Shown: positions 6,184 through 7,646 of the stretch, piece by piece | Position numbering within the stretch: the first letter of the stretch is position 1 | Layout: each line of letters opens with the position of its first letter | NCBI GenBank assembly: GCA_027490265.1 | Contig: JAIXYL010000002.1 | Location: 1 to 64,000 of the forward strand | Source of the DNA: Sediminibacterium sp. | Lineage (GTDB): Bacteria > Bacteroidota > Bacteroidia > Chitinophagales > Chitinophagaceae | DNA length: 64,000 nt | Reading direction: 5' to 3' | Position numbers and translations under genes: made by a program | The notes under the pieces: model-generated | The model's database searches: none | What the model saw: only the letters and a program-made list of their open reading frames with translations | What the model was told of the DNA's origin: nothing

Positions 6184-6212
6184 AACGCCTCGATTCGTCG
6201 GGGCGTTTTTTT
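6184..6212 (+). terminator. Rho-independent terminator after fusA
   Basis: AACGCCTCG-ATTCGT-CGGGGCGTT then T-run. Confidence 0.8.
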
Positions 6213-6391
6213 GTTCAATAGAAGGACCAATCTAAAATTGATTGGGTGGATTTAGGGGGAAGGACACTGGCTCATCAGATTTAATATTCATTATTTTTGT
6301 AATCTCAAAGCCTTTTTTGGGGAAAAATTCGCCAAATCAGCAAAAAATAAAAAATAAATCCACAAAAAGCGGTAAAAAAAAGATAAAAAAC

Positions 6392-6422
6392 TTGTCTGTT
6401 CAATTACAGCTCCTTACCTTTG
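6392..6422 (+). promoter_or_regulatory. Promoter for rpsJ/S10 operon (TACCTTTG, weak -33 TTGT)
   Basis: TACCTTTG at 6415-6422; TTGT at 6392-6395, spacing 19. Confidence 0.6.
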
Positions 6423-6452: not shown

Positions 6453-6758
6453 ATGTCTCAGCGAATCAGAATCAAATTACAATCATACGATCACAATCTG
6501 GTAGATAAATCTGCAGAGAAGATCGTTAAGACAGTACGTAGTACAGGTGCAGTAGTAACAGGACCTATTCCTTTGCCTACACACAAGAAAATTTTCACTG
6601 TATTGCGTTCACCACACGTTAATAAGAAGAGCCGTGAGCAGTTCCAATTAGCTACGCACAAGCGTCTAATGGATATCTACACTTCTTCTTCTAGAACAGT
6701 AGATGCGTTGAGCAAACTAGATTTACCATCTGGTGTTGAGGTTGAAATCAAAGCTTGA
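6453..6758 (+). CDS. rpsJ: 30S ribosomal protein S10 (start corrected to ATG 6453)
   Basis: [45 protein letters not shown]. Confidence 0.97.
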
Positions 6759-6841
6759 TAAAAGCTTAACTGAAGTTCTTATAAAACATTATCTGCCAAT
6801 TGGCTAAACCCAAAAAAGCAGCTCTGATTAAAAGATAACAA

Positions 6842-7011
6842 TCATTTAGGTCACAAAGAACTAAATGAGTAACATATAAACAGGCCCTTCGAGGTTTGTT
6901 TACTACCGGTACTTCCCCTTCAAAATTTATTTTGAAAACAACGGAAAAGGTCGGTAGCAAACTAGGATTGAATCCCGCTTCATCGGTGGGATGTCCTCAT
7001 AACCGAGCGGG
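6842..7011 (+). ncRNA. Candidate structured leader / cis-regulatory RNA upstream of rplC (three hairpins)
   Basis: TCATTTAG(6842-6849)/CTAAATGA(6861-6868); GTTTaCTACCG(6898-6908)/CGGTAGcAAAC(6952-6962) enclosing TTCAAAA-TTTA-TTTTGAA (6919-6936); CCCGCT(6974-6979)/AGCGGG(7006-7011) plus CGGT/ACCG inside. Confidence 0.5.
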
Positions 7012-7028
7012 GCATAAACCGCAAAACG

Positions 7029-7646
7029 ATGAAAGGAATTATTGGAAAAAAAATCGGGATGACCAGCATCTTCGGCGCTGATGGAAAGCAGACTGCTTGT
7101 ACCATCGTAGAAGTTGCTCCAAACACCGTAACTCAAATCAAGACACAGGAAACCGATGGTTATTCTGCTGTTCAATTAGCAATCGGCGACAAGAAAGAAA
7201 AACACGCTACAAAAGCCGAAATCAATCACTTCGCAAAGGCACAAACGCCAGCTAAGAAATTCGTAAAAGAATTCCGCAATTACTCAATAGAAAAAAATCT
7301 AGGTGAAACTGTTACGCTTGACATCTTCTCTGAAGGAGACAGTGTTGAGGTAGTTGGTACCACTAAAGGTAAAGGTTTCCAAGGTGTTGTAAAACGCCAC
7401 GGATTCTCTGGTGTGGGTGAAGCTTCCCATGGTCAGCACGATCGTCAACGTGCACCAGGTTCTATTGGTGGTTCTTCTTATCCTTCAAGAGTATTCAAGG
7501 GTATGAGAATGGCCGGTCGTATGGGTGGAGACCGTGTTAAAATGAAAGGTTTGAAAGTAGTTAAAATATTTTCAGAAAAGAACTATATCCTGATCAGTGG
7601 TTCAGTACCAGGTCATAACGGTTCTATCGTTTTAATTCAGAAATAA
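7029..7646 (+). CDS. rplC: 50S ribosomal protein L3
   Basis: [29 protein letters not shown]...[16 protein letters not shown]. Confidence 0.98.

Follow-up and report, generated by a model that had tools for sequence, protein, structure and literature searches.

A conserved structured RNA between rpsJ and rplC in Chitinophagaceae, a candidate ribosomal protein leader with a boxA-like site

The gap between rpsJ and rplC in Chitinophagaceae holds a conserved, covarying, single-copy RNA that is fixed in its location and whose fold is kept in dozens of genera. It consists of a 3' module of four helices (P1-P2-P3-P5; positions 6878-7022 in Sediminibacterium sp.), to which most of the family adds a second hairpin, D1, and a boxA-like site, giving three modules as judged from the sequences. 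We consider it likely that this RNA is an autogenous ribosomal leader for rplC and the genes that follow it, joined to a boxA at which NusB-S10 would protect or tune transcription of the gap. Most likely, the gap RNA lets the cell adjust its output of ribosomal proteins.

RESULTS

Location and fold of the rpsJ-rplC gap

The window, which is the whole 64,000-nt stretch of Sediminibacterium sp. DNA that was analyzed, has the gene order rpsL, rpsG, fusA, and rpsJ, followed by S10/spc genes (Table 1). The original prediction of a 270-nt gap without a convincing open reading frame was confirmed. With the end of rpsJ at 6758 and the start of rplC at 7029, the gap spans 6759-7028, and there was no sign of a conserved open reading frame in the family gaps, in which the longest complete frame had a median length of 28 amino acids. 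The gap folds with -65 kcal/mol, compared with -51.1 +/- 4.4 kcal/mol for dinucleotide shuffles (z of -3.1), and 2 of 200 shuffles folded equally well. The genome to which it belongs contains a single copy of the gap sequence. The original prediction left the family of the suspected leader undecided. No Rfam 15 family reached its gathering threshold anywhere in the window; at E values up to 10 the gap yielded only sub-threshold, chance-like matches.

Table 1. Coordinates of features in and around the rpsJ-rplC gap of the window
Feature	Position	Strand	Description
S10-operon promoter, Bacteroidota type	6391-6422	+	TTG ... TACCTTTG; from sequence; 38 nt 5' of rpsJ ATG
rpsJ (S10 = NusE)	6453-6758	+	open reading frame and tblastn
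boxA-like site	6774-6786	+	AGTTCTTATAAAA; about 16 nt 3' of rpsJ stop
D1 hairpin	6788-6828	+	outer helix 6788-6790/6826-6828; internal loop AU 6791-6792/CUCU 6822-6825; inner helix 6793-6796/6818-6821; apical helix 6800-6803/6810-6813
Spacer hairpin (hairpin 1 of the original prediction)	6842-6868	+	sequence varies among relatives
P1 hairpin	6878-6901	+	AAACAGGCC-CUUCGA-GGUUUGUUU; 100% of cells paired; almost invariant
P2	6903-6957	+	conserved outer helix 6903-6908/6952-6957; near-invariant internal loop GUAC 6909-6912/AAGGU 6947-6951; second helix 6913-6916/6943-6946; variable apical hairpin 6919-6936
P3	6964-6997	+	lower helix 6964-6968/6993-6997 plus A6972-U6992; UGA bulge 6969-6971; upper helix 6973-6978/6986-6991; strongest covariation
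P5 hairpin	7007-7022	+	GCGG/CCGC; pairs formed in 77% of cells, double changes present; 6 nt 5' of rplC ATG
rplC (L3)	7029-7646	+	open reading frame; first cistron 3' of the gap element

Conservation and covariation of the 3' module

The expectation of a structured RNA before rplC held: conservation and covariation of its stems extend across the family. In a MAFFT alignment of the 3' module from 55 sequences (alignment A1), 37 columns were invariant, the P1-P2-P3-P5 pairs were formed in 92.5% of cells, and double changes were present in 26 of the 37 pairs. The covariation score of P1-P5 was 0.373, versus 0.171 after shuffling and no more than 0.108 after sliding. The top pairs in an R-scape-like scan of A1 were four P3 pairs, which lay beyond all 60 null alignments. 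With 98 sequences the top pairs were mostly in P3, P2, and the P2 apical stem; one pair of the 3' module exceeded every one of the 100 null alignments, and the remaining pairs had E values of about 0.3 to 1 or weaker. The null re-dropped the changes of each column on the tree, and the E values are from this home-made null, not from R-scape. Both the tree-aware null and the pair counts support the proposed folds, with weaker support for P2 than for P3. P5 is the least conserved helix of the module.

The three hairpins first proposed for the gap are present as inverted repeats, but the comparative data altered their anatomy and revealed P1, D1, and the boxA-like site, which had been overlooked. 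The first hairpin proved to be an unconserved spacer across relatives. The second is real, but its conserved outer helix is that of P2, and GTTT at 6898-6901, which had been assigned to it, belongs to P1. The CCCGCT/AGCGGG repeat of the third can be found in the sequence, but covariation instead backs the upper and lower helices of P3.

The most constrained parts of the module are P1, the P2 internal loop, and AUUGAA/UGU of P3. In L168, a distant member of the family, the P2 loop is retained and the rest of P3 is lost, which suggests that this loop is the likely recognition core. A candidate pseudoknot would join GGCA in the P5 loop (7011-7014) with the complementary UGUC at 6992-6995. The letters are conserved, but no changes on both sides were seen and the pairing competes with P3; it was rejected as an established pairing and is kept as an option only.

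Hairpin D1

D1 was aligned in 98 sequences anchored on the conserved motifs AU and CKCU, which form its internal loop and are flanked by covarying helices. The inner helix, CUNY/RNAG, was paired in 97 to 100% of these sequences and the three pairs of the outer helix in 98, 98, and 80%. The four variable pairs of D1 took the top four places of the covariation scan (E values of 0, 0, 0.005, and 0.13), and its pair-count score was 0.671 versus 0.270 when shuffled. A covariance model of D1 (R2) gave one strong match per genome with the 3' module, at the gap locus, and searching the window with it returned no match besides D1.

By eye, a similar AU/CGCU loop can be seen, in quite different helices, in family loci that lack the 3' module and in a sister family (f9; loci L048, L052, L056, and L063). 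Because R2 scores these loci poorly, the likeness is a reading of the sequence and not a model match. The four f9 loci, which are from the same order, have the D1-like hairpin just before rplC and a boxA-like site before rpsJ.

Distribution of the element

About 95 Chitinophagaceae genera were sampled by an RplC search and the gaps were extracted, which gave 137 family loci; several come from one genus, and the counts that follow are therefore not independent. The P1-P5 module was present in 104 of the 137 loci (class A; median gap of 286 nt) and absent from the other 33 (class B; median gap of 124 nt). Most relatives within the genus of the window yielded leader DNA, and their gaps measure about 225 to 369 nt. 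In other families of the order the gap is mostly short (median, 20 nt).

In 297 genomes of the phylum, a covariance model built on P1-P5 (R1) found only 8 genomes of the family and one weak match (E value of 0.04). When one genome from each GTDB species (about 85,000) was searched with a degenerate P1-P2 pattern, at least 117 stretches matched. The titles of the matches listed were mostly of Chitinophagaceae genera (among them Sediminibacterium, Hydrotalea, Niastella, Niabella, Arachidicoccus, Flavihumibacter, and Terrimonas) or of uncultured Bacteroidetes/Sphingobacteriales, and two had other genus names. In 80 matches that were examined, rplC followed at 128 to 283 nt in 79 of the 79 that could be tested, the remaining stretch being too short to tell. 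Among the matches listed, with the family taken from their titles, the 3' module appears restricted to Chitinophagaceae and, wherever this could be tested, placed before rplC. The leader was not found on plasmids, nor the P1-P2 pattern in viral contigs.

Two metagenome-assembled genome records titled Flavobacterium and Williamsia (L288 and L345) carry the element, and their RplC proteins are 89% and 80% identical to that of the window; these records are probably mislabeled. At two further loci (L208 and L223) no rpsJ was found upstream of rplC, which appears to have its own promoter, and a shared hairpin, CGAAGCCCTACTGCTTCGATGG, before the rplC start is possibly another leader.

The boxA-like site and its association with rpsJ

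The boxA-like site has the form AGUUCUUAUAAAA in the window and class A, and GUUCUUUAAUAAAAUUGAAAAACAG is an example from class B. AGYTCTTW was found in 93 of 134 family gaps, versus 2.2 expected from shuffles. The rrn leaders of the family read AG[TA]TCTTTGAAAGTTTGGAARCA, the usual boxA shape, and several of them adjoin a promoter. The core GYUCUU is common to the gap sites and these rrn leaders.

It is possible, though doubtful, that the RNA is a ribosomal protein leader in which GUUCUUA is not a boxA but an element of mRNA processing, stability, or translation. In the window and at most class A loci the site is GUUCUUA, which differs by one base from the full consensus of GYUCUUU with an A-rich tail: class A boxes usually have A where the rrn boxA has U (position 7). 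Their A-rich tail is also loose. Furthermore, a recognizable boxA is missing from 28 of the 137 loci, including those of a small-genome clade of the window's own genus, yet the folds are mostly kept. However, class B loci fit the full consensus, and boxes such as the class B example come close to the rrn sequence GUUCUUUGAAAGUUUGGAARCA. The alternative also has to accommodate the finding that boxA-like sites in other Bacteroidota lie next to rpsJ, not rplC or rplD. Outside the family, GHTCTTT precedes rpsJ at 16 of 45 loci, versus 0.3 expected, and was found at 0 of 52 loci before rplC and 0 of 52 after it. The site is thus associated with a Nus-factor gene both within and outside the family.

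In the small-genome clade (L016-L018 and L020-L027) the boxA has decayed to forms like GTATTTATAA, D1 and P1-P5 are intact, and nusB is retained in the genomes tested. A boxA-like site is present on both flanks of rpsJ at four family loci (L037, L146, L154, and L164). GTTCTTT lies 9 to 24 nt 5' of the rpsJ ATG at L203-L207, L210, L212, L214, L216, L224, L048, L052, L056, L063, L064, and L043.

S10 is NusE, and S10-NusB binds boxA, as described in PMC10931766. The gap site is probably a docking site for the very protein that rpsJ encodes. nusB was present in 21 of the 22 genomes tested, the sole miss being the draft assembly of the window itself. Because boxA-like GTTCTTT precedes rpsJ in many Bacteroidota outside the family, autoregulation by NusE/S10 may be widespread in the phylum.

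DISCUSSION

A proposed leader displaced to the 3' side of rpsJ

TAnnTTTG was found within 120 nt 5' of rpsJ at 132 of 150 loci, and the 38-nt spacing of the window's promoter is the same at nearly all loci of the genus. Since the promoter is only 38 nt from the ATG, there is no room before rpsJ for an E. coli-type L4 leader, which lies in the rpsJ 5' untranslated region and has an intrinsic terminator; in the window this region is predicted to be about 28 nt. With so short an untranslated region, displacement of the S10-operon control site to the 3' side of rpsJ is plausible. Between fusA and the S10-operon promoter, 3' of fusA, is a strong intrinsic-terminator-like site (6184-6207).

An internal leader under protein feedback, coupled to a boxA, would be the most economical reading, by analogy with S7 and S8 in E. 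coli. We infer a ligand and a direction of regulation as follows. An S10-operon protein, most likely L4 or L3, would bind D1 and/or the P1-P3 domain, and binding would close off the start of rplC, so that this gene would be repressed together with its coupled cistrons; P5 would gate the start codon. The boxA, following the gene for S10/NusE, would load NusB-S10 onto the elongating polymerase, preventing Rho termination across the long untranslated gap and making downstream transcription sensitive to free S10. The covariation-backed structure and its consistent place before a ribosomal protein gene are as expected for a ribosomal leader. No convincing motif match pointing to mimicry of 23S rRNA was found in the readable 3' part of a 23S sequence from the same genus, most of whose bases are N.

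A more elaborate and rather speculative form of this scheme is a two-input switch, in which S10/NusE acts via the boxA and L3 or L4 via D1/P1-P3, with UGUC exchanging between P3 and the start-proximal GGCA pseudoknot. In such a switch boxA and S10 would decide whether polymerase crosses the gap, and the supply of small- and large-subunit proteins would be weighed before L3 is made.

The long three-helix build and the near-invariant loops, such as the P2 internal loop and the UGA bulge of P3, would also fit the ligand pocket of a metabolite-sensing riboswitch, or the RNA could be a processing or stability element instead of a protein-binding leader. We regard this as unlikely. Among the matches listed the element was seen only before rplC, in a ribosomal protein operon, and such operons are typically under protein feedback; nor was there a match to an Rfam riboswitch.

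We give still less weight to an attenuator of transcription, or a promoter inside the gap, that would split the operon after rpsJ. One other family of the same order (f3; loci L045 and L047) has terminator-like AACCGAGGGGTTTTTTTATTTT, with its U-run, immediately 3' of the rpsJ stop codon, ahead of rplC. However, neither a terminator-like site nor a plus-strand sigma-70-like site was found in the gap of the window, and no conserved TAnnTTTG box was noticed by eye in the conserved part of the gap. That the hairpins arose by chance in a long spacer, or that the gap is a mobile insertion, has next to no probability: several apical hairpins do vary freely between genera, but the covariation tests, the nearly complete pairing of the D1 inner helix, the single copy, and the fixed location already refute this explanation.

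Comparison with known systems

Control of the S10 operon is a textbook case, understood chiefly through L4 of E. coli. In a large bacterial family, the candidate leader would place such control at a different position, with an extended structured RNA and a boxA beside the gene for the reader of that boxA, and the internal loops of D1 and P2 would be new candidate RNA-protein recognition motifs. No described counterpart was found in Rfam 15 or in a limited search of the literature.

As described in PMC10931766, the E. coli S10 leader lies 5' of rpsJ, is controlled by L4, and additionally acts on transcription through attenuation at a terminator. The Chitinophagaceae element resembles it as a structured cis-acting RNA in the same operon, likely under autogenous control by an S10-operon protein, but it lies after rpsJ, has no terminator found in the gap, and matches no Rfam family. 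The leaders reported by Eckert and Weinberg in 2020 are likewise lineage-restricted candidates found by covariation (PMC7247131). They include L13 and S4 leaders in Bacteroidia and an L4 leader before rplC in Archaeoglobi; this rplC leader is archaeal, unlike the gap element. The rpsJ motif RLC-47-1 of Peptostreptococcaceae, found from Clostridioides difficile and described in PMC11109978, is another S10-associated candidate leader, and it sits 5' of rpsJ.

In E. coli, ribosomal proteins S7 (str) and S8 (spc) exert control from intercistronic sites, according to PMC10931766. Like those sites, the gap RNA would be a ribosomal protein target inside a polycistronic mRNA that controls downstream cistrons; it belongs to a different operon, and the likeness is one of position.

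For the boxA-like site, the closest parallels come from gamma-proteobacteria. Baniulyte et al. predicted a boxA 5' of rpsJ in three genera, and for the suhB boxA translational repression plus Rho termination were shown (PMC5725501). In those cases, as here with rpsJ/nusE, the site is tied to a Nus-factor gene, but in Chitinophagaceae it lies 3' of rpsJ, within a structured gap before rplC, and the phylum is Bacteroidota. The proposed leader would extend to Bacteroidota the Nus-factor autoregulation predicted in gamma-proteobacteria and would link the level of S10, antitermination, and the synthesis of large-subunit proteins.
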